From contig JAFAXQ010000053.1 of NCBI GenBank assembly GCA_019240835.1, forward strand, positions 1 through 34,182: a stretch of DNA of 34,182 bases, given 5' to 3'. This document shows, in pieces, positions 2,185-23,738 of this stretch. Every line of letters begins with the position of its first letter. Within the stretch, counting starts at the first letter, position 1. The notes beneath the pieces were generated by a model, which worked only from the letters and a program-made list of their open reading frames with translations, was not told where the DNA came from and made no database searches. The position numbers and the translations under genes are program-made. This DNA comes from Ktedonobacteraceae bacterium (GTDB lineage: Bacteria > Chloroflexota > Ktedonobacteria > Ktedonobacterales > Ktedonobacteraceae).

Positions 2185-4479
2185 TTGCCTCCCTTCAACA
2201 TGATCTTTGACAACGGAAACATGGGCGGCACCCATATGGACCCTTATTGGGGCACGCAAATGTGGGGGACGTGGGGACGAGACCCGAGGGGGCAAGACCA
2301 GGATGGGGAACCATTTGAGATTCCCATGCAAGGATTAGGCGTCTTCAGTTGCCTGAAGTCTGCTTGGCCCGGCTTTCATCCTGATTTTCGCGGGTTTGGG
2401 GGAGAAGAGGGCTACATTCATGAAAAGTTCCGACAGGCAGGCCACCGTACGCTGTGTCTGCCCTGGCTCCGCTGGATCCATCGCTTTGGCCGACCTGCTG
2501 GGGTAACCTATCCCTTCACACTGGAAGACCGAATCCGCAATTATGTGATCGGCTTTACTGAACTCGGGCTGGAACTGACCCCAATCCTTCAGCACTTCTC
2601 CCACTACCTGCCCCCACGTCACGTCATTGCTGTGACAGAGCAGGCCCGCTCTGAGATGCAAGAATCACGGAGGGTGCCTGTAGCGGAGAAGACCCTTCTG
2701 CCTGACATGCAGCTCCTGGTCTCCGTCGTGATCGTGGTCTATAACGGCGAACGCTATCTTGAGGCGGCGGTCAAGAGCATCCTGGAACAGACTTTACACC
2801 AGATCGAAGTCATCATTGTCAATGATGGCTCTACGGACACGACCGGACAGATCATCCAGGCGCTCGCCTGCGATCCGAGAGTCAGGCCAGTCCAGCAGAA
2901 TCATCTAGGTATTTCACGTGCCAAACACGCAGGGATAGCATTGGCCCAAGCAAAGTATATAGCCATGCAGGATGCAGATGATCTTTCCTTGCCAACGCGA
3001 CTGGAAAAACAGTATGCCCTCCTGCAACGCTGCCCTGATGTTGGCCTGGTCGCTACTTTGGCAGATCTGATCAACGAAGCAGGGGTCGTACAAGTGCTGA
3101 GCGAAGCAAGACAACAGCGCAGACAAGCACTGGGACGGATGAATGCTCACGAGTTACGGACGCTGTTGTTTCAGATGAATTGTTTCGTGCATGGTTCAGT
3201 GATGATGCAGAAGTCAGCCTGTCTGGCCGTAGGCAATTATCGTGAAGAGCTTTCACTGGCGGAAGACTATGATCTCTGGTTGCGCATGGCTGAACGCTCT
3301 GCATTGGCTCTTCTTCCCGAGATGTTGTATCAGTATCGTGTCCACGCGGACACCCTCTCGAACAAGCATGCTCCTTTGCAGCAGGCGAAGGCGCGTATTG
3401 TCAGAGAACTCGCACACGAACGGCTGCAAGTAGGAATGGATGTACTACAGCAAGGAGGAACGGCAGCCTTTTTGGCCAGATATGGAGCAGAACTCCAGGC
3501 CGCAGAACAGGCCAACGCCATTCGTCCGTCACGTCAGTTGATGGAGGCTCCCTCATCGCGCCCAGTTTTGAAGCCGAGAGGAAACCATGACGAGCTCGAA
3601 GACAGGGCAAGTGTCTCTGCCACGCTTCCGTTTCCTCTCGTCCCCTTCACTTTTTTGGAAAAGAGGACCGTCCAGCCCCAGACATCTTACCTGATCGCTT
3701 CGACCGCACGCACTGGAAGCTACCTGCTGTGTGAAGCCCTGTCACAGACTGGCTTGGCTGGGCGACCAACCGAATATTTTGTGGGAAGCATGATGCTTTC
3801 CTTGCAACGAGAATGGGGGATCTCTTCTTTGAGCGAGTACCTCAACAAAGTGCTGGAACTGGGCACAACTCCCAACGGCGTCTTTGGCATGAAGGCGCAT
3901 TTGAGTCAGTTTCGTCTTCTGCTCAGCGCGCTCCAGAAGATTGCCGTGGACCAGGGACTGACGGGAGAGGATCTGCTGTCAACCGTCTTTCCTCATCTTT
4001 CCTATATCTGGATCACACGCCGGGACAAGGTCCAGCAGGCGATCTCCTTTCTGAAGGCAGCGCAGACCAACCTCTGGTGGCTGACAGACCAACCTCCAGT
4101 TCCTGCGCCCCCGCCGAATGCAAAGATACCTCTGTTTGATTTCGAGGCGATTGACCGAGCAGTGCAGGCGATAGCGTTAGGGGAAAGCGCCTGGCAGGAG
4201 TATTTCAACGGTCATGCGATCACGCCTTTAGTGGTCACCTATGAAGATTTGATACAAACCTATGATGCAACTGCTCGCTCTGTTCTCTCCTATCTGAACA
4301 TCCCCATCCCTGCACATCTGGGGATTCTCGAACCTCGTATGAAGAAGCAGGCAGACGGGATTTCGCAGGAGTGGGCAGAGCGTTATCACAGTCTCAAGCG
4401 AGCACAGAAGGTCCCTCTCTCTATGCACAAGCGTCTTTCAAGCACCATCTCTCATCCCGCGGAAACGCGAGGGATGTGA
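2185..4479 (+). CDS. Three-module protein: truncated glycosyltransferase, GT2 glycosyltransferase, Stf0-type sulfotransferase
   Basis: Three modules are readable. Residues about 1-155 resemble the C-terminal half of a GT-A glycosyltransferase (FRGFGGEEGYIHEKFRQAG, then LCLPWLRWIHRFGRP); the nucleotide-binding half is missing. Residues about 178-400 form a GT2 domain with VSVVIVVYNGERYLEAAV at 179, NDGSTD at 213-218, DADD at 263-266 and EDYDLW near 360. Residues about 500-740 match Stf0 sulfotransferases: the PAPS-binding loop STARTGSYLL at 506-515, RPTEYF at 527-532, NGVFGMK, and TRRDKVQQAISFLKA. Stf0 enzymes move sulfate from PAPS to a sugar such as trehalose. A protein that adds a sugar and then sulfates it is a reasonable inference. 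The start is uncertain: TTG 2185, ATG 2200 and ATG 2221 are all possible and none has a strong ribosome site. It probably shares a transcript with the regulator upstream and MauE downstream. Confidence 0.85.
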   Translation: MPPFNMIFDNGNMGGTHMDPYWGTQMWGTWGRDPRGQDQDGEPFEIPMQGLGVFSCLKSAWPGFHPDFRGFGGEEGYIHEKFRQAGHRTLCLPWLRWIHRFGRPAGVTYPFTLEDRIRNYVIGFTELGLELTPILQHFSHYLPPRHVIAVTEQARSEMQESRRVPVAEKTLLPDMQLLVSVVIVVYNGERYLEAAVKSILEQTLHQIEVIIVNDGSTDTTGQIIQALACDPRVRPVQQNHLGISRAKHAGIALAQAKYIAMQDADDLSLPTRLEKQYALLQRCPDVGLVATLADLINEAGVVQVLSEARQQRRQALGRMNAHELRTLLFQMNCFVHGSVMMQKSACLAVGNYREELSLAEDYDLWLRMAERSALALLPEMLYQYRVHADTLSNKHAPLQQAKARIVRELAHERLQVGMDVLQQGGTAAFLARYGAELQAAEQANAIRPSRQLMEAPSSRPVLKPRGNHDELEDRASVSATLPFPLVPFTFLEKRTVQPQTSYLIASTARTGSYLLCEALSQTGLAGRPTEYFVGSMMLSLQREWGISSLSEYLNKVLELGTTPNGVFGMKAHLSQFRLLLSALQKIAVDQGLTGEDLLSTVFPHLSYIWITRRDKVQQAISFLKAAQTNLWWLTDQPPVPAPPPNAKIPLFDFEAIDRAVQAIALGESAWQEYFNGHAITPLVVTYEDLIQTYDATARSVLSYLNIPIPAHLGILEPRMKKQADGISQEWAERYHSLKRAQKVPLSMHKRLSSTISHPAETRGM

Positions 4480-4515: not shown

Positions 4516-6018
4516 ATGATGGATATTATTCTGTTGGTCATTCGTCTGCTGCTTTCGGCAGTCTTCTTGGTAGCCGGAATCGCCAAATTGGGGGATCTCA
4601 CAGGGTCCCGGCAAGCCTTACGCGACTTTGGGGTCCCTGCTCTTGTCGCCCAGCCCGCAGGAGTGCTGTTGCCACTCACTGAACTGGCGGTGGCGGTGGC
4701 GCTGATTCCGACGATTTCTACCTGGTGGGCAGCGGTGGTCTCCCTCGGTCTCTTCTTGCTTTTTGTCGCGGGCATCAGTTATAACCTGGCACGTGGGCGT
4801 ACCCCTGATTGTCATTGTTTTGGGCAGTTGCACTCCACTCCCGCTGGCCCATCCACGCTCATCCGTAATCTGGTGCTGGCCGCTCTGGCTGCTTCACTTG
4901 TCGTTCTTGGGCGCAAGAGCGTAGGGATCGACCTCTTTGGTTGGTTTGGTCAGCTTTCTCTTCGAGATCTGCTTGAACTCATTGGGACTATGATGGGGCT
5001 GGTGGCCCTCTCTGTCACCCTCTGGCTGCTCTTTCACGTTCTGCGCCAGCAGGGGCGGCTACTTTTACGGCTGGAAGCGATGGAGGCTGGGCTCACTGGC
5101 ACCCCTTCTGGCACGAGTCTGCCAACTGCCGGGCTACCTGTTGGCGTTCCTGCTCCCTCGTTTCGTCTGCCTGATATGGCGGGAGCAACAAGGACGTTGG
5201 AGGATCTGCTTGCCCTGGGCAAACCGGTGCTGCTGCTCTTTGCGTCTCCCAATTGCGGACCATGCGAGGCTATTTTCCCTGAAATGAGTCGATTGCAACG
5301 CGACCACGCGAAGGAACTGACAGTGGCTGTCATTAGTCAGGGGAGTAAGCAAGCCAACCAGAAGAAGGTGGCAGTGCATGGAATGGCCCAGGTGCTCTTG
5401 CAGGAGAAATATGAAGTGCAGACGGCCTATCAGGTCACAGGCACGCCTTCTCTCGTCCTCATTCGTCCCGATGGCACCATCGGCTCGCGCCTGGCTCAGG
5501 GGGCTGACGCCATTCGAGGGATCTTAGGAAGCTCTACTGGCTTCCCTGTGCTTGCTGGCTCGTCATCTCGCAATGGGCATGGGCCTCAGGCTGCCAGCCC
5601 GACCGGGCTTGCGCCCGGCGCACAAGCTCCCGATTTCAGTCTACCCGATCTCTCTGGCAAAACAGTTCGTCTCTCTGACTGGCTGGGAAGTCCGACGCTG
5701 CTGCTCTTCTGGCGACCCGGCTGCGGCTATTGTCAGCGGATGCTACCCGCGCTCCAAGCCTGGGAAGCAGACCCACCCTCGCATGCACCTCGCCTGCTGC
5801 TCATCTCTAGTGAGAGCGTACAGGCAAATCAGGCGATGGGACTGCACTCGCCCATTGTCCTCGATCCGTCTGGCATGAGTGTGGGCATGAAGTATGGAGC
5901 CACTGGAACGCCGATGGCGGTCCTCGTGGATGCGGAAGGTAGGGTTGCCTCGGAACTGGCGACAGGAGCAGAAGCAGTCCTCGCGCTGGCTGGGGTACAG
6001 GCCCCCTCGCCTGCATAA
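4516..6018 (+). CDS. MauE/DoxX-like membrane protein fused to two thioredoxin-like domains
   Basis: Residues 1-135 form a four-helix MauE/DoxX-type membrane domain with the family's CHCFG motif (Cys99, Cys101). MauE-like proteins act in disulfide or redox handling of exported proteins. A further membrane segment lies at about 150-175. Two TlpA/AhpC-like thioredoxin domains follow: about 207-340, with active site CGPC at 247-250 and cis-proline TGTPS at 308-312; and about 365-495, with CGYC at 403-406 and TGTPM at 463-467. Both CxxC pairs are intact. In many genomes MauE and its thioredoxin partner are separate genes, so one protein carrying the membrane module and two thioredoxins is unusual. 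The side of the membrane on which the thioredoxins act cannot be fixed by eye. ATG 4516 or 4519 follows AAGGGAG. It lies 36 bases after the sulfotransferase gene and is probably co-transcribed. Confidence 0.85.
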   Translation: MMDIILLVIRLLLSAVFLVAGIAKLGDLTGSRQALRDFGVPALVAQPAGVLLPLTELAVAVALIPTISTWWAAVVSLGLFLLFVAGISYNLARGRTPDCHCFGQLHSTPAGPSTLIRNLVLAALAASLVVLGRKSVGIDLFGWFGQLSLRDLLELIGTMMGLVALSVTLWLLFHVLRQQGRLLLRLEAMEAGLTGTPSGTSLPTAGLPVGVPAPSFRLPDMAGATRTLEDLLALGKPVLLLFASPNCGPCEAIFPEMSRLQRDHAKELTVAVISQGSKQANQKKVAVHGMAQVLLQEKYEVQTAYQVTGTPSLVLIRPDGTIGSRLAQGADAIRGILGSSTGFPVLAGSSSRNGHGPQAASPTGLAPGAQAPDFSLPDLSGKTVRLSDWLGSPTLLLFWRPGCGYCQRMLPALQAWEADPPSHAPRLLLISSESVQANQAMGLHSPIVLDPSGMSVGMKYGATGTPMAVLVDAEGRVASELATGAEAVLALAGVQAPSPA

Positions 6019-6142: not shown

Positions 6143-7795
6143 TCACATCACATCCACACTGATGGTATGATACCCTGACGAGCCATCAGGCAGAGGCGGA
6201 GCCTCAGCAGGATCCTGGACGTTGCCCTCCATATCAATGGCACGTACGACAATCGTATACGATCCTTTTGCGGGCTGCCAGACAAGCTCCCACAGCACCC
6301 AGGTGAGAGCAGATAGGGGACGTTTGGGCAGTGCTTTTTGCCAGGTTGTACCCGCATCAAGACTGACATCCACTTCGCTGATACCTTTGTCGCCCGAAAA
6401 AGCTACACCAGCAATGTAGGTCAGTCTGCCCGCTGGCAGTGTCGAGCCGATGAGCGGCGTGTCAATGCGCGCCGTCATACGAATAGGGGCGGCATCGCTC
6501 CAGCCGCGCTGTTGCCAGTAGCCCTGGTAGTCGCTGTTGACAACCTCAATGCGCGTTATCCATTTCACATGCTTCATGCCATAGATACCAGGGACCAGTA
6601 GACGTGCAGGAAAGCCGTGTCCCTGGGGAAGCGTCTGGCCGTTCATGCGCACCGCTACCAGTGTTGTCGGCTCCACAGCCTTCGTCAGATGAATACTATC
6701 ACTATAGTCGTCGACAGCATACAGTACCACCTTGCTTGCTCCTGGCTTCACTCCTCCAGCACGCGCTAGTAGGTCGGCAAGCGGAATCCCCTTCCACAGC
6801 GCATTGCTCATGTACTGACCCCCAACCTCGTTGCTAATGCACATCATCGACTCGTACTGTTGCTTTCTAGGCAAAGCCAGCAAACCTTGGTAGGTCAGGG
6901 TATAGGGAGACATGACCTCTCCCTCGACTCGTAAAGACCAGTTAGCCGCGTCAACCACAGGGTCGGAAAAAAGATTTTTCGACACGATATAATACCGATC
7001 ATTCGGGGTTATTTCGCTTGAGAGCAACGGGGCAGGGTGAATCTCGCCGTACTGGGGATGCGGCGGCACTATCTTAGGCGTGAACTGCGTAGCTAAGCGC
7101 GACTTCACGGCGTTATTTGATGGAGCTATACCTGCTCCGAAGCCATCGCTAATAAAGCGCCACGCCAGTACGCCCAACACCCCTATACCCGCGACTTCCA
7201 GTACACGCCATAAGATGGTGCGGCGAGAGAGGTTCTCTTCGAGGTTACTTCCTGATAGCGCATACGTTTGTAGATAGCGTTGCAGCAGCCAATTATAAGT
7301 GGACACAAACAAAAGTCCAAAAGTCAGGCCCACCACTGCCAGACTGAGCATTGTGTCACCCAGGCCAATAACCAATTGTGCGCCGAAGAGTCCGGCACCA
7401 GTCAGCGGCATGAACACAAAACCCGTTAGTAGCCAGAGTACGAGTGCGACTATGATACCCGTCGTCCAGTGTAGCCACTGCTGCGTACCTTGCTTCATTG
7501 TGGCGACGAGCAGGGCGCATAAGCCACCACTTAGCGCAAACACCAGACATTGCCCTACCATGATGCCATAGAAGAGATAGTATTTGGCATCAGCGCCTAT
7601 AAGCTGATGCAGATAGTCAAAAAGTGGCGGCGGCATGAGCTGCGTCAAAGCCGAGCCAAATACTTCAGGTAGCGAGATACCGTGCAGCGTCACGTTCAAG
7701 AAAAGCATGAGGGCCGTGGCAATTACGCCAGCGACCAGACCTGCTAGCAACCCTCTAGTGAAGAGCCGCCTACGTGGTAACGCTAGTATTTTCAT
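6143..7795 (-). CDS. Membrane-anchored sulfite-oxidase-family molybdopterin oxidoreductase
   Basis: The N-terminal 215 residues carry about five hydrophobic segments (roughly 13-37, 70-98, 106-129, 136-166 and 195-213). Residues about 270-430 form a sulfite oxidase/YedY-type molybdopterin domain: SLRVEGEV, then MMCISNEVGG with Cys319 as the expected molybdenum ligand, then GHGFPARLLVPGIYGMKHVK with the conserved Lys and Arg. Residues about 435-550 look like the Ig-like Mo-co dimerisation domain (YIAGVAFSGDKGISEVDVSLD). The enzyme should oxidise or reduce a small sulfur or oxygen compound outside the membrane; the true substrate is unknown. No clear heme ligand set is visible in the membrane part. 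The ATG at 7795 has GAGGGGG upstream on the minus strand. It is transcribed toward the MauE fusion. Confidence 0.88.
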   Translation of the reverse strand: MKILALPRRRLFTRGLLAGLVAGVIATALMLFLNVTLHGISLPEVFGSALTQLMPPPLFDYLHQLIGADAKYYLFYGIMVGQCLVFALSGGLCALLVATMKQGTQQWLHWTTGIIVALVLWLLTGFVFMPLTGAGLFGAQLVIGLGDTMLSLAVVGLTFGLLFVSTYNWLLQRYLQTYALSGSNLEENLSRRTILWRVLEVAGIGVLGVLAWRFISDGFGAGIAPSNNAVKSRLATQFTPKIVPPHPQYGEIHPAPLLSSEITPNDRYYIVSKNLFSDPVVDAANWSLRVEGEVMSPYTLTYQGLLALPRKQQYESMMCISNEVGGQYMSNALWKGIPLADLLARAGGVKPGASKVVLYAVDDYSDSIHLTKAVEPTTLVAVRMNGQTLPQGHGFPARLLVPGIYGMKHVKWITRIEVVNSDYQGYWQQRGWSDAAPIRMTARIDTPLIGSTLPAGRLTYIAGVAFSGDKGISEVDVSLDAGTTWQKALPKRPLSALTWVLWELVWQPAKGSYTIVVRAIDMEGNVQDPAEAPPLPDGSSGYHTISVDVM

Positions 7796-8084: not shown

Positions 8085-8963
8085 ATGGACCATGATGGAC
8101 AGACACTTTCAGAGGGAAAGACCTCTTCTAACAGCGCTCTTATCCATGATCACGGCAAGGAAACACCTGGAGAGTTCTATGAAGCATTGGGAACTGCGAC
8201 GATGCAGAAAACCAGCAGCTACCCACGGGTCAGCGTTATCATTCCAGCACTCAATGAAGCAAAGAATCTCCCTCACGTCTTGCCGTATGTGCTAACTATT
8301 GCTAGCGAGGTGATCTTGGTAGATGGGCATTCGACCGACGACACGGTCGAGATAGCACAACGTCTCATGCCCACAATCAAGATCACAAAGCAGACTGGCA
8401 AGGGCAAGGGCAACGCGCTCCAATGCGGATTAGCAGTAAGCACTGGAGACGTCATCGTGATGATGGACGCAGATGGTTCGACCGATCCCAAGGAAATTCC
8501 ACGCTTCGTGCAAGCGATACTACTAGGTGCCGACCTCGCAAAAGGGTCGCGCTTCCTCAACTCTGGCGGTAGCGCCGATATTACACGCCTACGCCGATGG
8601 GGTAACCACTTGCTGCGTATGATTGTCAACTGGCTCTTCCAAACGCACTTCACTGATCTGTGCTACGGCTATATCGCATGCTGGCAAGGTAGCCTCGATT
8701 TCATTGAACTTGATAGTAACGGTTTTGAAATCGAAACGCAGATCATCCTACGTGCTCGTAAGGCCAATCTCAAGATTGTCGAAGTGCCCAGCTATGAGCA
8801 TCTTCGCCTCCACGGTGCCAGCCACTTGAAGCCCTTTCGCGACGGGTGGCGGGTGCTGCGGACGATCTGGCAGGAGTGGAGCAAAGGGTACTCGGGTATC
8901 AAAACTCCTGGTTGGCACCGCCTCTATCAGTCGAGTATCTCTGAATGGCAAGCTGACTCGTAG
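8085..8963 (+). CDS. Family 2 glycosyltransferase, dolichol-phosphate-mannose-synthase-like
   Basis: A single GT-A domain occupies residues about 46-230: PRVSVIIPALNEAKNL at 47-62, VDGHSTDDT at 79-87, the Lys/Gly-rich GKGKGNALQCGL, and MMDADGS with the DAD metal-binding motif at 128-130. FTDLCYGY and the ending typical of DPM1-like transferases follow. There is no C-terminal membrane anchor, so the protein is cytoplasmic or peripheral. Such enzymes move a sugar from a nucleotide donor to a polyprenyl phosphate or lipid acceptor. The first 40 residues are not part of the family core; Met40, directly before the core, is an alternative start, but GGAGG before ATG 8085 supports the longer form. 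It probably contributes to the surface polysaccharide coded further right, although it stands apart from that cluster. Confidence 0.85.
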   Translation: MDHDGQTLSEGKTSSNSALIHDHGKETPGEFYEALGTATMQKTSSYPRVSVIIPALNEAKNLPHVLPYVLTIASEVILVDGHSTDDTVEIAQRLMPTIKITKQTGKGKGNALQCGLAVSTGDVIVMMDADGSTDPKEIPRFVQAILLGADLAKGSRFLNSGGSADITRLRRWGNHLLRMIVNWLFQTHFTDLCYGYIACWQGSLDFIELDSNGFEIETQIILRARKANLKIVEVPSYEHLRLHGASHLKPFRDGWRVLRTIWQEWSKGYSGIKTPGWHRLYQSSISEWQADS

Positions 8964-13410: not shown

Positions 13411-14571
13411 TTAGGATGGATGGATAGCCTCAAATAGTTGGTGATAGGATGTGACGCTGTGCTCCCATGAATGGGAATCAGTGTAACGCTTTCCACGAAG
13501 TCGCGCTACCTGGGACAGTGCGCTTTGAAGCATAGCAACATCTCCTGGGGGCACTAGAATAGCACCTTCGTAACCAGCCACTGCCTCAATTAAACCGCCG
13601 ACACGCGTTACCACTATCGGCAATCCCCAGCTCATTGCGATGTGCAGGGGTCCGCTCGTTGATGCCCGGTGGTAGGGCATCACTACAGCGTCTGCCCCGG
13701 CAAAGAACTGCCCAACCTCTGCATCGGACACATAGCGGTTGACGAACGTGATCCGATCACTATAGCGGCTTTGGTGAATGAGATTTGTTGGCATAGTCCA
13801 TTGCTCCCAAGTCTCGCCAACAATAGTAAGCCAGTAGCCGGCAATTTCGTCCTCGGGCAGCGCATCGAACGCTCTGATAAGATCTTCAAGGCCTTTATAC
13901 GGTCGAATCACGCCAAAAAATAGCAAGTTGCAGCATGACGCCGGCGCAGTGCGCTGCCCCTGCTCCCCATCAGCTAACTGATAATGGTCATACGGGCCAT
14001 GGGGAATCAGCGCGACAGGTCGTCTCTCCAGGTCATAGTATCCCTGCAACAATTTATGGTCATATTCAGAGTGGATGACCAAGCCATGCGCCAAGCGTAC
14101 CACGAGCGGCGCAATGAGTCGCACATAGGCTTGTGCCAGCCGCAGCTTTGCCTCCCCCGTATCGAGCACTTCGTGGAACTCAATCACCACTCGTGCCCCC
14201 AACAGCCGTGTTACTAAAGCAAGCAGAAGATACGAATGTAGCACTGTCCCGCTCCACCATTGGAACACAACCACCTGCGGGCGCTCCTGTATAAGCAGCA
14301 GCAGAGCGCGGAGCATACTGGGTAGCCAGTACCAATCCACCCCATCAAAGACTCGCACAGCAGGATCATACTCCAAGCGGGTTAGGTTCGCCCCTACACG
14401 CTTTCGTCCAGGGTAAAAATGCGTTGGCAACAACTGACGCATCAAAATCGCTGATACCTTACATGATCGTGCCAACGCATTCACCAAGCGGAGGGTATAG
14501 TAGCTGATTCCGCTCAGAAAGCGCGTGCCCGCCCCAACCACGCATACCCGTAGCTGCGTGTTCTCCGTCAT
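13411..14571 (-). CDS. GT4-like glycosyltransferase (GT-B fold)
   Basis: The N-terminal half begins LRVCVVGAGTRFLSGISYYT, typical of GT4 enzymes with a Gly-rich loop that binds the acceptor. The C-terminal half has CNLLFFGVIRPYKGLEDLI (the conserved K/G region), then FVNRYVSDAEVGQFFAGADAVVMPY, then SGPLHIAMSWGLPIVVT. The classical E-x7-E pair at this last place is absent: the position expected to hold the second Glu is Ile. This occurs in some GT4 subfamilies. It should add a sugar to a lipid-linked oligosaccharide at the inner membrane face. The ATG at 14571 has AGAGG upstream and lies 5 bases after the flippase stop. It is the last gene of the minus-strand polysaccharide cluster. Confidence 0.85.
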   Translation of the reverse strand: MTENTQLRVCVVGAGTRFLSGISYYTLRLVNALARSCKVSAILMRQLLPTHFYPGRKRVGANLTRLEYDPAVRVFDGVDWYWLPSMLRALLLLIQERPQVVVFQWWSGTVLHSYLLLALVTRLLGARVVIEFHEVLDTGEAKLRLAQAYVRLIAPLVVRLAHGLVIHSEYDHKLLQGYYDLERRPVALIPHGPYDHYQLADGEQGQRTAPASCCNLLFFGVIRPYKGLEDLIRAFDALPEDEIAGYWLTIVGETWEQWTMPTNLIHQSRYSDRITFVNRYVSDAEVGQFFAGADAVVMPYHRASTSGPLHIAMSWGLPIVVTRVGGLIEAVAGYEGAILVPPGDVAMLQSALSQVARLRGKRYTDSHSWEHSVTSYHQLFEAIHPS

Positions 14572-14576
14572 TGTAC

Positions 14577-15878
14577 TTAACCTCTTCTAGAAAAGCTGAT
14601 AAGATCTGCCGCTGCCACCAAACTCCCGGCTGTTTGAGCGGCAAAGAAGGCCCAACCAGCCCCTGCAATGCCCAGTATTGGCAGCAATAACCATGATAGA
14701 AGCAGTGTGAGCGATGCCATACCCAGGTTGAGCAGTACAGCACGCCGTAGACGCCTCTGCACACGTAACACACTCACATAGATATTTGTGATTGCGTCAG
14801 GAACCGCTGTAATAGTGAGAATTGTCAAGAGTGGCAGGCCATACTGAGCATAGTTCGGTCCAAACAATAACATGATAGAGCGCCCACCTAAGAATGCAAT
14901 GAGCATAGCTGGGATTAACAGTATAGTGATGATCACTGCGCTAGAGCGTGTCTTATGCAAGACGTTATCAGTAGCGTGCGAGCCTTCGGCGAAGAGCGCC
15001 ACTGCCACCGCCGACGATATCATATAGAAGAAGCCACCCACCATAGAAGTGGTATAATAGTAGGCATTATCGGCTGCAGATAGCCGCACTGTCACAAAGA
15101 CTGGCACCAGATATACAGGCATCAAGCCACCGATATTGATGAAATGATTCCATGCAAGCAATGAGAGCATGGTGCGGACCTGCCCTACTATACCACGCAC
15201 GGCCAAGCAGTAGGCTCGCTTCAGATATGGTATCAGCACCAACCATGCTCCTATCAAAGTAGCCGCAGCGGCCAGGACGAACCCAGAGAAAATCCCCAAT
15301 ACGCCCCATGAGGTGAGCAACACCATCAGTACAAACTTGATCACGGCAAAAGCTGCATTGCGCACTAGCGTGTTGTTTGCAGCTCGCTCTGCTACAAAGG
15401 TTTGATCTAACAGTGTGGTAATGATCCATAGTGGCACCCCAGCAATGAAGACAAAGGCACAGGTAGGATAATATGCGAAGATAGCGAACTGGCGCGAGAA
15501 GAAAGGAAGAACCAAGACAACAATGCTGCCAGCAAGTAAGCCAGCTAAGGTACCTATCACCAATCCTGCATTCAGTGTGAGCGACCACGCATAACCTGTC
15601 TCACGGCGAGGCAAGATGTGTACCAACGTTGAGTCTATACCCAGGTTGCTAAAAGTCGCAGTGAGCATCATAACAGCAATAATCGCTGACGCCAAGCCTA
15701 CATCCTGGGTTGAGTAGATATGGGCTGCCACAATCCAATAGAGGTAGCCGATGGCTGACGTAGTAACGGTTGTACTCATGATGTAGATGCTATTGCGTAG
15801 CAAAGAATCATTGCGTATGCGCCGAACCAATGCATGTAACAACGACCAGAAGTTCTGGCTGACCTGTTCGAAAATCAT
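14577..15878 (-). CDS. Polysaccharide flippase of the MOP superfamily (Wzx-like)
   Basis: The 433-residue protein is hydrophobic throughout, with about 12 membrane segments, and begins with a short amphipathic stretch before NSIYIMSTTVTTSAIGYLYW. The region STQDVGLASAIIAVMMLTATFSNLGI matches the start of RfbX/PST-type exporters. Such proteins flip a lipid-linked oligosaccharide to the outer face of the membrane. It lies between DUF1616 and a GT4 gene, as expected for a Wzx/Wzy-type polysaccharide locus. The start at 15878 has only a weak ribosome site (GAG), so an internal ATG is possible. Confidence 0.85.
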   Translation of the reverse strand: MIFEQVSQNFWSLLHALVRRIRNDSLLRNSIYIMSTTVTTSAIGYLYWIVAAHIYSTQDVGLASAIIAVMMLTATFSNLGIDSTLVHILPRRETGYAWSLTLNAGLVIGTLAGLLAGSIVVLVLPFFSRQFAIFAYYPTCAFVFIAGVPLWIITTLLDQTFVAERAANNTLVRNAAFAVIKFVLMVLLTSWGVLGIFSGFVLAAAATLIGAWLVLIPYLKRAYCLAVRGIVGQVRTMLSLLAWNHFINIGGLMPVYLVPVFVTVRLSAADNAYYYTTSMVGGFFYMISSAVAVALFAEGSHATDNVLHKTRSSAVIITILLIPAMLIAFLGGRSIMLLFGPNYAQYGLPLLTILTITAVPDAITNIYVSVLRVQRRLRRAVLLNLGMASLTLLLSWLLLPILGIAGAGWAFFAAQTAGSLVAAADLISFSRRG

Positions 15879-15957
15879 AGCACTCGCTTTTGTTCTCTCT
15901 GTTGCCGTGCGACGATGTATACAAAACTATACACGCCTACCACTGCACCGCTTTCTC

Positions 15958-16737
15958 TCATGTGCTAAGCCATAGCACAACATGACGGTATATCGTTGTG
16001 GGAGCGTTTGTATGGTAGAGCAACGCCTCCACTTTTGCAGCATGATGGGTTTGTGGTAGCACAAGTGTCACTTCCCACTTCTCGTTCACCTTGAGATCAA
16101 TAGAAGACCATACCTTCACTACCTTGCCGTCCACGTTAACACTGAGCCTGTACTGCATAGCTTTCGACTCCATGTTGCGCACCCCAAGACGGGCAACATT
16201 CGACGGGTTGGCTCCCCCTGTCGGCAGTATCCAGAGCTGGGTAAATCCCGCAAAGGGTTGCTGTGCCACTCCGACGCTAGACACAATTATCGCTGCACAC
16301 ACTATTAGCGCAGCTAAGCCCAATAGCAACCCTTGACGAACTGTGAAAACAAGACTCCTAAGTCCCCTCCGTGCTGAACTAGTTACGCTCTGTCCTCGCC
16401 GACGTACGAGTGCGACGACACAGGTGCCCAGCGTAATACTACCTAAGAGCACTGACCAGGAGCTTGCGCGCAAGCCAAATGGCGTCCAATTAAGCGCAAA
16501 CCCACCTAATATCACAATCGTTAGACTTAAACCTAGGCTAAAAACGAGGCGCTCTGCAAGCCCAAACGAGCCTCTGGGGAACATCGCTACCATTAGCGCG
16601 TAGCCCGGCAACACGAGCACAAGTGGTAATGTCCAGATGCGACCAAGCACACTATCCGGCGTCACCGCGAATGTCAAAGTGACTGCAACAATGGTGACTG
16701 CGATTGTCACAAGTATATCAATAGACCTATGTTTCAT
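15958..16737 (-). CDS. DUF1616 family membrane protein
   Basis: Four or five membrane segments lie within residues 1-180, including the family hallmark LPLVLVLPGYALMVAMFP followed by AERLVFSLGLSLTIVILGGF. The C-terminal about 85 residues form an extracytoplasmic beta-rich domain with FTQLWILPTGG and VRNMESKAMQYRLSVNVDGK, also typical of DUF1616. The function of the family is unknown; members often sit beside glycosyltransferases and surface-polysaccharide genes, as here. The ATG at 16737 has GAGGGAG about 8 bases upstream, and that site is part of a hairpin listed separately. It is separated from the GT-C-like gene by 51 bases. Confidence 0.8.
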   Translation of the reverse strand: MKHRSIDILVTIAVTIVAVTLTFAVTPDSVLGRIWTLPLVLVLPGYALMVAMFPRGSFGLAERLVFSLGLSLTIVILGGFALNWTPFGLRASSWSVLLGSITLGTCVVALVRRRGQSVTSSARRGLRSLVFTVRQGLLLGLAALIVCAAIIVSSVGVAQQPFAGFTQLWILPTGGANPSNVARLGVRNMESKAMQYRLSVNVDGKVVKVWSSIDLKVNEKWEVTLVLPQTHHAAKVEALLYHTNAPTTIYRHVVLWLST

Positions 16738-16742
16738 TTAGT

Positions 16743-16766
16743 ATTTCTCCCTCAAAAGTGAGAAAT
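16743..16766 (-). promoter_or_regulatory. Hairpin covering the Shine-Dalgarno of the DUF1616 gene
   Basis: ATTTCTC (16743-16749) and GAGAAAT (16760-16766) are perfect inverted arms around a 10-base loop, in the 51-base gap between two genes. On the minus-strand RNA the downstream arm overlaps the GGGAG ribosome site, so folding could lower translation of the DUF1616 gene relative to its neighbours. Confidence 0.4.
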
Positions 16767-16788
16767 GCTTGTTTCGCATTGCCTGTAA

Positions 16789-18717
16789 CTACGACTTGCC
16801 CGCAATTGCTTCAACGTCATAGATAATGATATCGCCGCTATCGAAAAGTCGACTCACATTCTTCACGTTATCAAATTTTGCTAGCGCTAGCGGACTGATT
16901 GGTTGGGACTGCAAAGTGTTAGACGCATCTACGCTGAAGTAGGTTCCCACCCGTGGCAATCCTTCGCTGAGTCGACGATCAACAACGAGATACTGAATCT
17001 TGTCTTCCTGCAGAATAGACTCTACGTCCGGTCCAAATTGCAGTGAGATAAATATCTGCGCCACGTCGGTTTTGGCGTCCAAGGCTGTGACAGTCCACTC
17101 GTTCCCATACGTCATCATGAGCAACGTATTGATACGGTCAGTGGCTACGCGACGCCCGGGTCCAAGGTAGGAGCGCGCCCACTCTGCTGCCGTCACACCT
17201 TGCGGCTCAATAGAACGCTGATCAGCAGAAATCAGATATGGCCCCGGCATACGAGCCCACGATGGTCCATCACTCACGATCGCTTGCCCCACGACGATGA
17301 TGCCTATTGCGCCCATGACTACTGCAGCTTGTCTCCAGCTCAGCCCGTGAGACAACCAGAACTGTTTGGTTCCAATGGTCAGGACGAAGGCAACCCCGAA
17401 AAAGAGAAATGCTGCTAACCGATCCGCTGATTCCGCTCCAGCAGGCGTCAGACGGAATGCCTGGCTCACCGGGTAGGCAAGTGCTCCGCTAGCCAGGGCA
17501 AGGGCGACTGCACTGGTGCGATATTTTCGCCAGATGTGGAACAGCCCAAATGGCAGCCCCAGCAGGATCAAAGCCACCGAAGCAAACCCTGTTACACGCT
17601 CCCACAGAGGCGTCACGAAGCCTGCACCGTCATGAAACAGTTGCCGGGTTGCTTCTTCGCCAGCGAGTATCTGCAAGACCTGATGCACTGTACTATCAAC
17701 GTGTGGGCTTAGGTAACCTACTGCCATATCCCCCGTGTATTGCAGCCAGACGGCACACAGCCCTAACGCTAGCAGCGCTGCTCCGCCCGGTCCTACATGA
17801 CCTTTCTGATGGCAACTTTGAGGAAAAGATGTCACCATCCAGACAAACAGGAATGGTGTGAGTATATATGACGTTATATGGTGCGTGATCACTACCGCCC
17901 CAATGCCAAGACAGATCATCAGGGTCAGACCTCTATGGCCACCGACAGCGCAACGCAGGGCTATGGCGAAGGCAACGAGCACCGTGAGAGGTAGGGCTAG
18001 AGACTCATACGAGAACCCTCCGTTGAACCAGCCCACGCAAGCAACGTATAACAGTGTGGAAATCCCTGCTACTTGTGCCGAGTTACTAACGTGTTCGTAG
18101 AATAGGTAGAGCGCCAGCATAAGCACCAGCCGTGCTACCCCAATTAACACAGACCCAGCAGCGAAAGCAGACAGTCCTGTCAGGCTGCTAAGTGCATTTG
18201 TGGCAATCTCTAGCCCAGGATAAAAAGGGCTAATTGGTAAACCGGGATTTGCCTGAAAGAGATGCCCGCTCGCCATAATATCGTTTGCCGTTCGCACATG
18301 TAGAAAATCGTCATAGAGGTGCCCATTCGCGAGCATATCGGTTGTTGCTTGCAGGTGTAGCAATTCGTCAAAGTGCGCGAAATAAAGTGGGTATCCCAAC
18401 AGCTTACCAAAGTAGAGTGCCATTCCCAACATAATGACAAGAGCAATGCGCTCTCGTCGTGCTGCATCAGGTGAGAAGAGACGCCACGCGACGGGTAGAA
18501 AAAGCACTAGCAGGCCAAACCAATACAGCGGCTCGGATACTTGTGATGCAAAACGCCCCGCGTTGTATGCCAGCGCTAGCAGCAACAGTCCCAGTGCGCT
18601 GGTCACGCTTAGCGCCGGCAACCAACCCCAATTGTCGGCTCTCGGTAGAGCGGTGGCGACCGCGATATCGTCAGCCAGCAACTCAGGCTCTCTCAGACCC
18701 GCCAGTACATTAGCCAT
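16789..18717 (-). CDS. Large multi-pass membrane protein, probable GT-C-fold glycosyltransferase
   Basis: The 642-residue protein has about a dozen membrane segments over residues 30-480 and a soluble C-terminal part of about 140 residues. After the third segment, at 116-118, FDE is placed like the catalytic acidic motif in the first outer loop of GT-C enzymes, which use polyprenyl-phosphate sugars. This is followed by a duplicated 19-residue unit (listed as a repeat) and ISPFYPGLE. The C-terminal part contains ARSYLGPGRRVATDRINTLL and YLVVDRRL, like the outer domains of related Chloroflexota membrane proteins. It could be a glycosyltransferase or a polymerase-like enzyme of the surface glycan. 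ATG 18717 lies 2 bases after the preceding stop, with AGG upstream. Confidence 0.65.
   Translation of the reverse strand: MANVLAGLREPELLADDIAVATALPRADNWGWLPALSVTSALGLLLLALAYNAGRFASQVSEPLYWFGLLVLFLPVAWRLFSPDAARRERIALVIMLGMALYFGKLLGYPLYFAHFDELLHLQATTDMLANGHLYDDFLHVRTANDIMASGHLFQANPGLPISPFYPGLEIATNALSSLTGLSAFAAGSVLIGVARLVLMLALYLFYEHVSNSAQVAGISTLLYVACVGWFNGGFSYESLALPLTVLVAFAIALRCAVGGHRGLTLMICLGIGAVVITHHITSYILTPFLFVWMVTSFPQSCHQKGHVGPGGAALLALGLCAVWLQYTGDMAVGYLSPHVDSTVHQVLQILAGEEATRQLFHDGAGFVTPLWERVTGFASVALILLGLPFGLFHIWRKYRTSAVALALASGALAYPVSQAFRLTPAGAESADRLAAFLFFGVAFVLTIGTKQFWLSHGLSWRQAAVVMGAIGIIVVGQAIVSDGPSWARMPGPYLISADQRSIEPQGVTAAEWARSYLGPGRRVATDRINTLLMMTYGNEWTVTALDAKTDVAQIFISLQFGPDVESILQEDKIQYLVVDRRLSEGLPRVGTYFSVDASNTLQSQPISPLALAKFDNVKNVSRLFDSGDIIIYDVEAIAGKS
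18256..18369 (-). repeat. In-frame tandem duplication of a 19-residue loop unit in the GT-C-like protein
   Basis: Residues 117-135 (DELLHLQATTDMLANGHLY) and 136-154 (DDFLHVRTANDIMASGHLF) align without gaps with 8 identities and many similar residues. Each unit is 57 bases. The copies have diverged, so the event is old. It duplicates the acidic start of the presumed catalytic loop. Confidence 0.7.
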
Positions 18718-18719
18718 AC

Positions 18720-19940
18720 CTATACCTGTTCATATATGTGCTCAATACGCGGTACAACTGTGCTAGCCTGAAACGCCATGACTTTGCGTAGTGCGGCTTG
18801 CCCCATACGACTGCGAAGATCTGGATGCGCCAGCAACCTCTCGATGGCTTGCTGTAGAGCTGTCGCATCCCCCGGTTGAACCAGAAAGCCGGTCTCACCA
18901 TCAGTCACGAGGTCGATTAGCCCACCACCACGCGAGGCGACAATAGGCTTGCCCATGGTCATCGCCTCCATAGCTACCGTCGGACAAGAGTCAGGCCCCA
19001 CTGTGGGAATTAATGCCATCATGCTACGATGCCATGCCTCCATAACTGCATAGCGCGGCCAGTCCCTTAGCACAAAGACGTTGCGCGGACAATCTACGGC
19101 CATAACTGACCAGTCTGGCATTTCGTGCCCAATGAGAACCAGGGGGGGCGCATGGGTAAGACCAGCATATGCTCGTAGCAGCACATCCACTCCCTTGAGG
19201 TGGCCCAAAGCACCGACGAAGAGCAGGTAATCCTCGTCAGGTAGTTGTGCAAGGTAGGGCTTAAGGTCACCTTGTAGTGTACTAATATCGTCAGGTATGA
19301 AGTTGGGAATGACCTGGAATGGCAGTTGACTCCCGACCAGGTGACAGCCAAGCGCCACTGCTTGACTCACCGGTAAGAACATGTCAACGGCACCTCGCTC
19401 CACCAGACTCATCACCCAATTACTCAGCACAGTGGGTATTCCCTTTACCAAGCCGTAATATTGGGTGGCACAGCCGAGGCACTTCGTAAAACCAGGCCCC
19501 TCGCACAGTGCATTGTGATACAGAAGTGTCAGCTTCGCGCATACCAGATTATTGTTGTGTAAAGTTACGATGAGCCGTACCCCACTCCAGACCTTCAGTG
19601 GTAGAAAGGAATAGACAAGCCAGTTATGTGCATGAACTATCTCAGGCCGCTCCTGCACAATGACACGGCGCAACGCCAGCGTTATCTCTGGATCAGGAAA
19701 TGGTGGCGCGTAGCACCGTTTGCTGTTACTGAAGAGCCAGGGCATACGCTGCATTGAGGAGCGAACACGATACACACGCACACCTTGGTCCAGCTCGAAC
19801 TCTGCTAAGCCCTGGTGCCACAGCGTGACGACGGTTACGTCGTGGCCACGAGCCACAAGCTCGGTGCTCAGGGCGCGAACGTGTTGTTCCTCCCCCCCAA
19901 TAATAGGTGGATAGAACTGTGAGAGCATCAAGATACGCAT
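18720..19940 (-). CDS. GT4 glycosyltransferase (GT-B fold)
   Basis: The start MRILMLSQFYPPIIGGEEQH is the standard N-terminus of GT4 enzymes, with the Gly-Gly loop for acceptor binding. VHAHNWLVYSFLPLK follows in the first half. In the second half come LLFVGALGHLKGVDVLLRAY and CPTVAMEAMTMGKPIVAS, which keeps the second Glu of the E-x7-E signature, then GETGFLVQPGD. It should transfer a sugar from a nucleotide donor with retention of configuration, on the cytoplasmic side. A Cys-rich stretch (CEGPGFTKCLGC) in the first half is also seen in GT4 members of polysaccharide loci. ATG 19940 has GGGAG upstream and overlaps the preceding gene by 13 bases, so the two are translationally linked. Confidence 0.9.
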   Translation of the reverse strand: MRILMLSQFYPPIIGGEEQHVRALSTELVARGHDVTVVTLWHQGLAEFELDQGVRVYRVRSSMQRMPWLFSNSKRCYAPPFPDPEITLALRRVIVQERPEIVHAHNWLVYSFLPLKVWSGVRLIVTLHNNNLVCAKLTLLYHNALCEGPGFTKCLGCATQYYGLVKGIPTVLSNWVMSLVERGAVDMFLPVSQAVALGCHLVGSQLPFQVIPNFIPDDISTLQGDLKPYLAQLPDEDYLLFVGALGHLKGVDVLLRAYAGLTHAPPLVLIGHEMPDWSVMAVDCPRNVFVLRDWPRYAVMEAWHRSMMALIPTVGPDSCPTVAMEAMTMGKPIVASRGGGLIDLVTDGETGFLVQPGDATALQQAIERLLAHPDLRSRMGQAALRKVMAFQASTVVPRIEHIYEQV

Positions 19941-21091
19941 GATGCTCCCCGCACGATACTCTTAGTGACATCCTGCACGATGGTCTGGTAGAGGGCTAAA
20001 AGATTAGCTGCACAGTCGTCCCACATTGGCAATTCGACGTTCGGCGGTACCAGCGGATGGCGCAGTTGGTCGACCATTGCTGTCGCTACTGCTTCTGATG
20101 TACTGTTGAGGGGGACCGTGCGTACGAGGCCACGATCAGCTAGCTCCTGCAACGCGGAGGTGGCGGTGACGAGCACTGGACGCCGCAGAGCAAGTGCCTC
20201 CAGAACAGCGATGCCTTGGGATTCATACTGGCTAAGTAGCGTCACAAGGTCAGCTCGCGCAAGCAGCGAGGCCATGCTGCCACGGTCCCCTGGCGGAACT
20301 GGCCGAATTTCTACACGTTCGGCAACACCAAGCTTTCTTGCCATCTTTTGCAGGGCCGATTCATACGGACCTACGCCCGCGATACGGACCCGCACATTTG
20401 GAACAAGTTCCAGCACCTTTGGCAGAGCCGCGATCACCCGTTGATGCCCTTTGTACCGTTCAAGCCGACCGATTGAGACAATCAGGGGGCCTTCATCTAC
20501 CTCGTCTGTTGCTTCTCCCGCCGACCCCGGCACTTCAGGCAGATACGCTCCGTTTGGAATGATCACAAATTGCTCGCCTGGAAGCCGCAACTGTTCTCGG
20601 AAGAAATCTGCCTCGAATGCTGAAACAGCGATTAACTTTCGCGCTCGCGACAAGAGTGGGCGCAACATCGCCCTTTGCAGTCCACGTAGCAAGCTGCGCA
20701 AGCGCGATACGTCCCCACCGCTATGAAAAGTGAGAACGTAGGGAAGTTTGGCTCGCCACGCAGCAAGCATCGCAAGAGGTGGTACCAGGCTATGGTACCC
20801 TTGACAATGCACAAGGTCCCACTGCCCACGAGCAATGAAGCGATAGATAGCTGGTGCAAAGTAGTAGTCCTTATTGGTCGGCCAGGCAAGCACCCGATGA
20901 ATCCGCACCCCATCTACCTCCTCAAAGGCTGGAAGCCGTCCGCTCACGTCCGTTGTCAGAACTGTGACCTCGACACCAGCACGCGCTAAACGCCGTCCTA
21001 CCTCATAGACGTGCGTCTCTGAACCTCCCATGTAGGGGAAGTAGCGCACAGCCACCAGCAGCACACGCAACGAACTAGATTCAATTGGCAT
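19928..21091 (-). CDS. GT4 glycosyltransferase (GT-B fold)
   Basis: From the preferred ATG at 21091 the protein begins MPIESSSLRVLLVAVRYFPY and continues MGGSETHVYEVGRRLARAG, the usual GT4 opening. The second half has LIVSIGRLERYKGHQRVIAAL with the conserved Arg/Lys pair for the nucleotide-sugar phosphates, and YESQGIAVLEALALRRPVLV with both Glu residues of E-x7-E. A frame continues upstream to a GTG at 21184, but that would overlap the deacetylase gene by more than 100 bases; the ATG at 21091 overlaps by only 11. It acts with the next GT4 in building the repeat unit. Confidence 0.88.
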   Translation of the reverse strand: MPIESSSLRVLLVAVRYFPYMGGSETHVYEVGRRLARAGVEVTVLTTDVSGRLPAFEEVDGVRIHRVLAWPTNKDYYFAPAIYRFIARGQWDLVHCQGYHSLVPPLAMLAAWRAKLPYVLTFHSGGDVSRLRSLLRGLQRAMLRPLLSRARKLIAVSAFEADFFREQLRLPGEQFVIIPNGAYLPEVPGSAGEATDEVDEGPLIVSIGRLERYKGHQRVIAALPKVLELVPNVRVRIAGVGPYESALQKMARKLGVAERVEIRPVPPGDRGSMASLLARADLVTLLSQYESQGIAVLEALALRRPVLVTATSALQELADRGLVRTVPLNSTSEAVATAMVDQLRHPLVPPNVELPMWDDCAANLLALYQTIVQDVTKSIVRGASCVS

Positions 21092-21965
21092 AGCTAGACC
21101 TGATTTCCTTACTAGCCCTCTTATCAATGGCGCTCCAGCCCGCCCAAAGCTTTCCGTACACGCCTCGTACACCTTGCCGCACATTGGCGCGTATCCGCTT
21201 CACAGGGGATGCAACCAGGGGTCCACAGCCACTAGATAGAGCAGTGGCTAAATCATGCACATCAGTATCCGGTTTGATCGCAAGACGAGCTAAGGCATAT
21301 GGGTCGTCGACCGGAGAACTTATCGTATGTTTGATCGCACAGGCCGAAGTATAACCGGATTCCTGCACAATCCGCCGCACAACAGAAGTGTAATAGCCAA
21401 ACGGATATGCGAAACTTGAGACATGTTGACCAAGATGTTCCTCCAGCAACTCTTTGGAGTGAACGATTTCGCTACGTGCTACAGAAGGAGATAGCATATC
21501 CAGTGGCGGGTGAGTATGAGTATGAGCACCGCACTCAATCCCGCTTGCGCTGATCTTAGCTACTTGGTCCCACATGAGCATGGGGCGCAGCGATTCGCCT
21601 TCACGCTGCAACCAACGACTCGTGCCGCCTACGAACATAGTAGCGATGTAGAGAGTCGCTACAAAGCCGTGACGTTGCAGAGCTGGCAGGGCGCAGGTAT
21701 AAAAATCCTCGTAGCCATCATCGAAGGTCAATATCACGGGCCGCGGAGGAAGCTTACCCCATCCCTGGTCCATTGCTTGCACAAATTGCGTCACCGTCAT
21801 TGAGGTGTAATGATGCTGTTCTAAGTACGACAGATGTTCCTCAAACACCTCCGGCGATACGATGCATGGCCTAAACTTTGGGCTAGCATAGCTCGAAATA
21901 CTATGATACATGAGGATTGGTATGTTTTGCTTTTGTACGCGTTTAACCATCAACATCTTTAACAC
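21081..21965 (-). CDS. Polysaccharide deacetylase (NodB/CE4 family)
   Basis: A CE4 metal-dependent deacetylase. After IPILMYHSIS (residues 15-24) come the NodB motifs: TFDDGYEDF with Asp82 and Asp83 (catalytic base and metal ligand), GAHTHTHPPL with the metal-binding His148 and His152, and FAYPFGYY. The class with ILMYHSI resembles IcaB/PgaB-type enzymes that remove N-acetyl groups from GlcNAc-rich exopolysaccharide. No clear signal peptide is visible, so the site of action is uncertain. The start may be GTG 21965, ATG 21956 or ATG 21950; none has a good ribosome site. It is the first gene of the seven-gene minus-strand cluster. Confidence 0.88.
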   Translation of the reverse strand: MLKMLMVKRVQKQNIPILMYHSISSYASPKFRPCIVSPEVFEEHLSYLEQHHYTSMTVTQFVQAMDQGWGKLPPRPVILTFDDGYEDFYTCALPALQRHGFVATLYIATMFVGGTSRWLQREGESLRPMLMWDQVAKISASGIECGAHTHTHPPLDMLSPSVARSEIVHSKELLEEHLGQHVSSFAYPFGYYTSVVRRIVQESGYTSACAIKHTISSPVDDPYALARLAIKPDTDVHDLATALSSGCGPLVASPVKRIRANVRQGVRGVYGKLWAGWSAIDKRASKEIRSSYAN

Positions 21966-22424
21966 TGCCGCTAGTGCTTCAACAGGGGTTCACTTAAACC
22001 TCGAACTTTGAAGGAATCCTCAGTTAACTGCAATAGGTTATCCGGCCTCTCCCTTATCTCAACGTCGCATGCCGACTTGAGTAGCTTAGAACAACAGCCA
22101 ACTTTAATCTCCGCGCAAATCATCGTAGCACAGCGATTGACTGAGCATAACCATAAAAGTACGAGCATTTTTGATGGGTATCTCCCCGAAGGATCTATAC
22201 GCCCTTTTCCCTAAGTAGCAGCCAGAGTCCCTCATACATTTACCTATGAAACCTGCGAGAAAATACTTACCAGAAATCTTCGTGTTTTCATGATTGTGCA
22301 TGCCAGATGCAGAGATTAGACTGTCTTCATCCCAAGCAGTAGTCTAGAACGAGGAAGTCATGTGGTTGATGCAGGCAACAGAGCTTATCGGTTTGCTTGG
22401 TTGGTCTTGTTGTAGGAAAAAAGT
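21966..22424. other. Divergent intergenic region upstream of the polysaccharide cluster and the ATP-grasp gene
   Basis: This 459-base region holds no credible gene; two overlapping frames of 65-68 codons are unsupported. TTGACT at 22137-22142 is followed after 17 bases by TACGAG, a poor -10. A 30-base imperfect palindrome at 22317-22346 (TAGACT...AGTCTA) lies about 80 bases before the ATP-grasp start and could be an operator. AGGA about 8 bases before ATG 22425 is the ribosome site. No clear minus-strand promoter for the deacetylase operon was found, although one must be here or further upstream. Confidence 0.5.
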
Positions 22425-23738
22425 ATGAAAGATTCTCTGGAAGAAGACTTGTATGTGCGTTCACCGCTGGTCGAACAGCAACTTACTAAGGTGCAGCAAG
22501 CTAAGGGCAAGGTGACCTATGACGCACTGGTGCTTGATGCAAAACTGCGCCAGTCACTGGTGACCATACGCTCGCTTGGGCGTCGTGGTATGCCTGTGGC
22601 CGCAGTGGAAATTGCCAGCCTGATCAAACAGTCCAGCCATGTACCTACCTTTGCTTCACGTTGGTGCCACCACGCCTATATTGCCCCAGCTTACGAGGAG
22701 AGCACTCACCCTTTTGTAGAATATCTGCTGCAGTTACTTGACGATACAGGTGTAAGGGTGCTCATCACCTCTTCCGACGGCACGCTTGCTGTACTCCGTG
22801 AGCATCGCCAAGAACTGGAAAAGCGAGTACGTCTTGCTTTGGCACAAGAGCCTGCTTTAGCACTCGCCCTCAACAAAGACCAAACCCTTCAGATGGCTGA
22901 ACAATTGGGTCTGGGTGTGCCAAGAGGGGTCATGATAAAAACTGTCAGCGAGCTTGCAGCAGCCCTACGTGAGATTGGCCTGCCTGCAGTCATCAAACCT
23001 GTTGCGTCCTGGGTCTGGGGCGAGCAACACGGCCAACGACTCGTCTGTCAGTTGGTCACCACAGCCGATGAAGCGCGTCTTGCGGTTGAGCAATTGACTC
23101 AGGATGGCGCGCCTGTGCTCTTGCAGCAGTTTCTCTCGGGAAAGCGCGAAGCGGTCAGCTTGCTGTATGCCCACGGGCAGATGTATGCCCGCTTTGCACA
23201 ATGGGCCAAGCGCACCCAGCCACCATTAGGTGGCTCATCAGTGTATCGCCAAAGTATTGCTCTGCCGGAGGATATTGGCCAGCAAGCAGAGCGACTTGTG
23301 CGGGAAATGGCTTTAGAAGGCTATTCAGAAGTCGAGTTTCGACGCGATAGTGTTGGTAAACCCTATCTTATGGAAGTGAATCCTCGTTTGTCAGCTTCGG
23401 TTGAGGTGGCCGTCCGTGCTGGGGTGGACTTCCCTTACCTGCTCTATCAATGGGCAAATGGTGACCGCATCGAGCGAGTCCCAGGCTATCAGGTTGGCGG
23501 GTGGATGCGCTACCTAGAAGGAGATCTGCTGACCACGGCTCAGACGTTCACGCAACGGGGCAGGCCAGGAGTGACGCCACCAGCTCAAGCGTTGCTCGAG
23601 TTTTGTACCGATTTCTTGACCCCAAGCGGCTATGATTACCTCGACTGGCAGGACCTGCGCCCTGTATGGGTAGCTGTTGCTGAGTCTATAGATCGTTTGC
23701 GGCAACGGCTGGGTAAAGACTTCTCGAAGCTATCATAA
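22425..23738 (+). CDS. ATP-grasp family carboxylate-amine ligase
   Basis: Residues about 30-130 form a Rossmann-like pre-ATP-grasp part (YDALVLDAKLRQSLVTIRSLG). Residues about 150-350 form an ATP-grasp domain: LPAVIKPV with Lys191 contacting ATP, PVLLQQFLSGKREAVSLL, and the metal-binding MEVNPRLSAS with Glu317 and Asn319. Such enzymes couple ATP cleavage to joining a carboxylate with an amine or similar nucleophile. Members of this subgroup occur in polysaccharide loci and as D-aspartate-ligase-like proteins; the substrate is unknown here. Since its neighbour makes a UDP-sugar with a carboxylate, amide formation on a uronic acid is a possible but untested job. Its last 6 bases overlap the 3' end of the convergent dehydrogenase gene. 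Confidence 0.8.
   Translation: MKDSLEEDLYVRSPLVEQQLTKVQQAKGKVTYDALVLDAKLRQSLVTIRSLGRRGMPVAAVEIASLIKQSSHVPTFASRWCHHAYIAPAYEESTHPFVEYLLQLLDDTGVRVLITSSDGTLAVLREHRQELEKRVRLALAQEPALALALNKDQTLQMAEQLGLGVPRGVMIKTVSELAAALREIGLPAVIKPVASWVWGEQHGQRLVCQLVTTADEARLAVEQLTQDGAPVLLQQFLSGKREAVSLLYAHGQMYARFAQWAKRTQPPLGGSSVYRQSIALPEDIGQQAERLVREMALEGYSEVEFRRDSVGKPYLMEVNPRLSASVEVAVRAGVDFPYLLYQWANGDRIERVPGYQVGGWMRYLEGDLLTTAQTFTQRGRPGVTPPAQALLEFCTDFLTPSGYDYLDWQDLRPVWVAVAESIDRLRQRLGKDFSKLS

Follow-up and report, generated by a model that had tools for sequence, protein, structure and literature searches.

Glycosyltransferases of the GT-A fold bind the cation and the donor through a DxD motif, and in inverting enzymes the xED motif provides the catalytic base (PMC7185993). 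Two such modules can occupy a single chain, as in the E. coli K4 chondroitin polymerase K4CP (2z86/2z87), in which both modules are complete and no sulfotransferase is attached. In the Stf0 sulfotransferase (1TEX), Arg143 and Ser152 belong to the 3'-PB (PMC10638397). The open-access literature searched yielded no paper on an enzyme that combines a glycosyltransferase and Stf0 in one chain. The gene described here lies in a contig of a Ktedonobacteraceae bacterium (Chloroflexota), whose whole analysed stretch of 34,182 nucleotides is referred to as the window, and it encodes part of one glycosyltransferase, a complete GT2 domain and a complete Stf0 domain. The interpretation to which we give about an even chance is that its product is a two-activity GT2-Stf0 enzyme that acts in making a sulfated surface polysaccharide and carries at its front a non-catalytic glycosyltransferase remnant left by a 5' deletion.

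The open reading frame (positions 2185–4479, + strand) runs for 764 codons from a TTG and has no internal stop. Its central part is a complete GT2 domain (residues ~175–422, positions 2707–3450, + strand), recognised by Pfam match, motifs and structural model alike. Glycos_transf_2 (PF00535) matches residues 180–289 with 97.7 bits, above the cut-off, and longer GT2 models extend the match to residue 392; the DGSTD (214–218), DADD (263–266) and ED (360–361) motifs are intact, so that both the DXD-type motif and the ED catalytic base are present, and pLDDT is above 90 across most of the domain. The best GT2 match by both sequence and fold is K4CP, and other GT2 enzymes also match by fold. A linker follows (residues ~423–500, positions 3451–3684, + strand), which from about residue 444 can be aligned with the N-terminal extension of a 388-residue Stf0 protein from another Chloroflexota genome.

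The C-terminal part is a complete Stf0 sulfotransferase domain (residues 501–764, positions 3685–4476, + strand). Stf0 (PF09037) matches residues 501–735 with 152.6 bits against a cut-off of 22, covering profile positions 1–242 of 244. The 5'-PSB (TARTGS, 507–512), Glu530, and Arg612 and Ser621 of the 3'-PB line up with their counterparts in 1TEX and in 15 further Stf0 domains from Chloroflexota, and Arg612 and Ser621 are spaced as Arg143 and Ser152 are. The Stf0 part of the structural model has a pLDDT of about 40, too low to confirm the fold or display a PAPS pocket, this being a single-sequence region modelled without homologues. In a tree of 16 Chloroflexota Stf0 domains the placement of the window's copy is not resolved; by path, its nearest neighbours are standalone copies of its own family. 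The genome also contains adjacent ATP sulfurylase and APS kinase genes elsewhere (on C54), and PAPS synthesis is thus encoded. The sequence-only reading of a complete GT2 domain followed by a complete Stf0 domain is borne out, and the PAPS-binding motifs are in place.

These domains are preceded by the C-terminal half of a GT-A glycosyltransferase, its catalytic and acceptor side with the GGEEGYIHEKF stretch (residues 6–154, positions 2200–2646, + strand), from which the donor-binding half with its acidic DSH motif is absent. No Pfam or NCBIfam model matches residues 1–165. By direct comparison, residues 6–154 are 62% identical to residues 117–265 of a glycosyltransferase of 302 residues encoded in a Thermomicrobiales genome, which is one of seven loci of the same family, from six phyla, recovered in a scan of the genome collection. 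The other six, from Actinomycetota, Pseudomonadota (Hyphomicrobiales), Acidobacteriota (two), Myxococcales and Verrucomicrobiota, show 52–63% identity. A family HMM, built with the window's own row included, matches the fragment with 284 bits (E 1.3e-84) over profile positions 121–270 of 271; judged from these alignments, a chance match to the family is excluded. The donor half, of about 115 residues with an acidic CMDSH-type motif, is clearly present in six of the seven relatives, and the seventh, a Chthoniobacter frame, also has an N-terminal half but with a disturbed middle. The earlier claim of a half domain lacking its donor-binding side accordingly stands, and the alternative that the N-terminal part is an independent family of half length does not. 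Full-length members carry varied unrecognised extensions (L038:7197-8477, L039:1302-3920, L040:1614-3077): the Rhizocola member has a membrane-like N-terminus that looks by eye like DoxX/MauE and has no Pfam match, a member from a Hyphomicrobiales MAG has a long N-terminal extension, and an Acidobacteriota member has a C-terminal extension of ~200 residues.

In an AlphaFold2 model of a full-length relative (pLDDT 67, pTM 0.69) the N-terminal Rossmann half, with strands at 4–10, 33–39, 56–59 and 81–86, is confident, and the fold matches are GT-A enzymes, polypeptide GalNAc-transferases, TarP and SpsA among them. The window's fragment corresponds to this relative from the strand at 117–120 onwards, just after the Rossmann half. 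The fragment thus has the C-terminal core of its family and lacks the donor half with the metal motif, and is not an active member; from the fold, a fragment without the nucleotide-binding half and metal motif would be expected to carry out no sugar transfer by itself. The GGEE that it retains may correspond to the xED motif.

The homology to this family begins abruptly at base 2200 (ATG, residue 6), 39 bases past the stop codon of an upstream LuxR-type gene (stop at 2159–2161) and just past the position of an LLQGP stretch that is conserved in the family; a junction of 38 bases (positions 2162–2199, + strand) lies in between. The frame proposed from the sequence at 2185–4479 is therefore real, with the refinement that homology starts at the ATG at 2200 and not at the TTG at 2185. 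The frame stays open for a further 28 codons in the 5' direction, and these contain no start codon. At no start codon within 2185–2734 was a Shine-Dalgarno sequence with at least 4 matches found, whereas seven of eight other window genes checked do have one; NuoA, a native gene among those checked, also lacks a clear one. Since none of the fragment's starts has such a sequence, the 5' end of the gene has most likely been lost; most simply, the original start region went in the same deletion. Because no start is preceded by a recognisable ribosome-binding site, the complete chain may not be produced. A search for repeat-mediated recombination at the junction found none. The upstream gene encodes a short MalT-like LuxR regulator of 516 residues (positions 611–2161, + strand), in which an N-terminal NTPase part is joined to a LuxR HTH with little in between, and its matches in related genomes are mostly ~900–1100 residues long.

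Taking these features together, we propose that the ancestral gene probably encoded three domains, GT, GT2 and Stf0, and that a deletion removed its 5' end, including the promoter, the ribosome-binding site and that half of the first glycosyltransferase which holds the donor nucleotide, leaving the remaining gene 39 bases behind the LuxR gene. Deletion had already been suggested as the origin of the half domain and is supported here as the likely one. In the remaining protein, the GT2 domain would add a sugar to a growing glycan and the Stf0 domain would transfer sulfate from PAPS to a hydroxyl of the added sugar or of its neighbour, coupling sulfation to chain assembly, and the remnant by itself would not catalyse sugar transfer.

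The whole gene could be a 5'-truncated pseudogene in the process of being lost, with its promoter, start and ribosome-binding site gone and its open frame reflecting a recent event; we regard this as unlikely, though deserving of serious attention. The fragment keeps 58 of the 62 sites that are invariant in six other relatives, and all four altered sites fall within its first 32 residues, which hold 16 of the 62 (p about 0.003 by simple counting), as expected of a pseudogene if selection is relaxed at the cut edge; the lack of a Shine-Dalgarno sequence at every start and the confinement of the architecture to one genome point the same way. On the other hand, the 58 retained sites, 764 codons without a stop and intact catalytic motifs throughout the GT2 and Stf0 domains argue against a pseudogene, and translation could be leaderless or coupled to that of the LuxR gene, the condition of NuoA being a native precedent. 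The fragment's tree branch (0.47, against 0.35 and 0.25 for its nearest relatives) is not the longest in the tree, and the pattern of sites and branch lengths, coming from a single genome, fits two histories alike: the truncation may be recent and selection relaxed at the cut edge, or the remainder may have been retained. Such retention could mean that the half domain serves as an acceptor-binding or docking module feeding glycan to the GT2 and Stf0 domains, which we consider improbable. The core of the half (RGFGGEEGYIHEKFRQAG and the residues that follow) is unchanged, no invariant site being altered beyond the N-terminal edge, and the spacer of about 20 residues to the GT2 domain is in frame; but a recent deletion would leave equal conservation, and half of a GT-A domain would be unlikely to fold once its Rossmann sheet is missing. 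In the whole-protein model residues 1–104 have a pLDDT of about 40, all below 50; the same segment is also poorly modelled in the full-length relative, with a similarly thin alignment, and the low values are therefore weak evidence. A fuller form of the earlier idea of an acceptor-binding module, a glycan-sulfating assembly line in which the catalytically dead GT-A half is retained for binding or docking and elongation and sulfation both run on one tethered substrate, has a slightly slimmer chance.

Two further explanations concern the assembly and the product. Two contigs might have been misjoined near 2161–2200, the real gene having a complete first glycosyltransferase; the genome is a draft of 313 contigs with 6% contamination and the break falls in intergenic sequence, yet the sequence at the join occurs only once in the assembly and contains no repeat, base composition is even across it, and the missing donor half is found on no contig of the assembly, which together make a misjoin decidedly improbable. 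As for the product, the sequence-only reading had raised the idea of a sulfated glycolipid, and synthesis of the mycobacterial sulfolipid type, with trehalose 2-sulfate as an intermediate, would agree with 1TEX being the sole solved relative of the Stf0 part by sequence and with trehalose 2-sulfotransferase (NF047724) being its best named NCBIfam model. That match reaches 115.2 bits against an equivalog cut-off of 400, however, so the domain is not an equivalog and trehalose is not to be assumed as its acceptor, and no acyltransferase or polyketide synthase gene was identified among the window proteins scanned. Stf0 relatives that lie beside or are fused to glycosyltransferases occur in polysaccharide or capsule-export neighbourhoods, which favours a sulfated polysaccharide over a sulfolipid; the glycolipid is unsupported, and the sulfolipid route is very improbable. 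The 388-residue Chloroflexota Stf0 protein that shares the linker (L007/L077), for instance, is encoded among four GT2 genes, two other sulfotransferase genes, and genes for an ABC transporter and a Wzy-type protein.

The surroundings of the fusion gene are consistent with a polysaccharide product, albeit at a distance. Directly downstream is a gene for a MauE-TlpA-AhpC/TSA redox membrane protein (positions 4516–6018, + strand), which shares 60% identity with its copy in a sister genome and 43–49% with the full-length copies that other members of the window's family carry, indicating that the gene is native to the genus and the contig native as well. In the sister genome a GT2 gene lies directly upstream of the MauE-TlpA gene, with 31% identity to the window's GT2 domain over 95 residues; this likeness is a positional similarity only and no proof of orthology. 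A separate, AglJ-like GT2 gene is found at positions 8085–8963 (+ strand), and polysaccharide-related genes (three GT4 genes, a Wzx-like Polysacc_synt gene, a polysaccharide deacetylase, DUF1616 and a UDP-sugar dehydrogenase) occupy positions 13411–25034 on the − strand, with an ATP-grasp gene among them on the + strand. This polysaccharide-related group starts about 9 kb from the fusion gene and shares no operon with it; a respiratory complex I operon closes the window.

Several genes related to sulfur metabolism or lying near Stf0 genes were observed alongside. A sulfite-oxidase-type molybdopterin gene (PF00174) is located at window positions 6143–7795, 1.7 kb after the fusion gene and beyond the MauE-TlpA gene, and the same type of gene (PF00174) follows the second Stf0 gene of genome G116 (L076:7989-10153). 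A standalone Stf0 gene and a PF00884 sulfatase gene are divergent neighbours in four genomes of the family, one of them the window's own genome, on contig C282 (L074:1-1870, L075:1993-4320, L076:12222-14673, L079:5721-8289), and this holds for all standalone family copies whose neighbours were examined except the second copy in G116; an enzyme that adds sulfate and one that removes it may together form a conserved unit. In both genomes of the window's genus a TIR-domain protein is encoded downstream of the pair (L074:2165-3730, L075:4478-6115).

The half-GT/GT2/Stf0 architecture is unique among the 400 Chloroflexota genomes sampled. Stf0 is found in 18 of them, and in a minority of genomes of the window's family, with the window's copy the only one fused to a glycosyltransferase; the fragment's glycosyltransferase family is found in just one other of the 400, and the half domain in none of the 28 other genomes of the window's family, so the same architecture was sought there without success. 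No three-domain protein with an intact first glycosyltransferase was present among the relatives found, no Stf0 match occurred in the seven genomes carrying the fragment's relatives, and the initial scan of genome contigs with the whole protein returned no relative. Searches found neither phage relatives of the fragment nor viral-contig relatives of the Stf0 domain. A match on a Pararhizobium plasmid (residues 178–556) was considered as a second GT2-Stf0 fusion and rejected, being absent from the Stf0 matches in plasmids. Another Chloroflexota genome encodes a 548-residue Stf0 protein with a C-terminal 2OG-Fe(II) oxygenase domain (L017:655-2298). Stf0 is also present in 20 of 398 Pseudomonadota genomes, in one of them as a 981-residue GT2-GT4-Stf0 protein (L185:5313-8300), whose gene adjoins ABC-2 exporter, Wzz-like and ABC ATPase genes in a capsule-export neighbourhood. 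The domains of this protein are far from those of the window (29% identity in Stf0), and fusion of a glycosyltransferase to Stf0 has probably arisen at least twice.

Two independent fusions suggest that bacteria may build sulfation into chain assembly, and the window's protein is a ready single-chain candidate for testing sulfated-glycan production. It extends the potential for sulfated glycans to a Chloroflexota family in which Stf0 is a minority trait, and its half domain shows clearly how part of one module can be lost from a fusion protein.

Compared with known systems, the window's Stf0 domain aligns over its whole length with 1TEX and shares with it the SxRSGS-type 5'-PSB, the conserved Glu and the Arg and Ser of the 3'-PB; unlike 1TEX, it is fused behind a GT2 domain and has Leu in place of Trp154 of the 3'-PB. 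K4CP resembles the presumed ancestor of the window's protein in having two GT-A modules in one chain. The uncharacterised GT-A family (L037-L043; Thermomicrobiales, Rhizocola, Hyphomicrobiales, Acidobacteriota, Myxococcales and Chthoniobacter) shares its C-terminal ~150 residues with the window, whereas its N-terminal part is the one that the window lacks. The Pseudomonadota GT2-GT4-Stf0 protein differs in that its second glycosyltransferase is a GT4, its GT2 match to the window's protein is short and weak and none of its domains is truncated, and it is like the window's protein in placing its glycosyltransferase parts ahead of a C-terminal Stf0 domain in a single chain.
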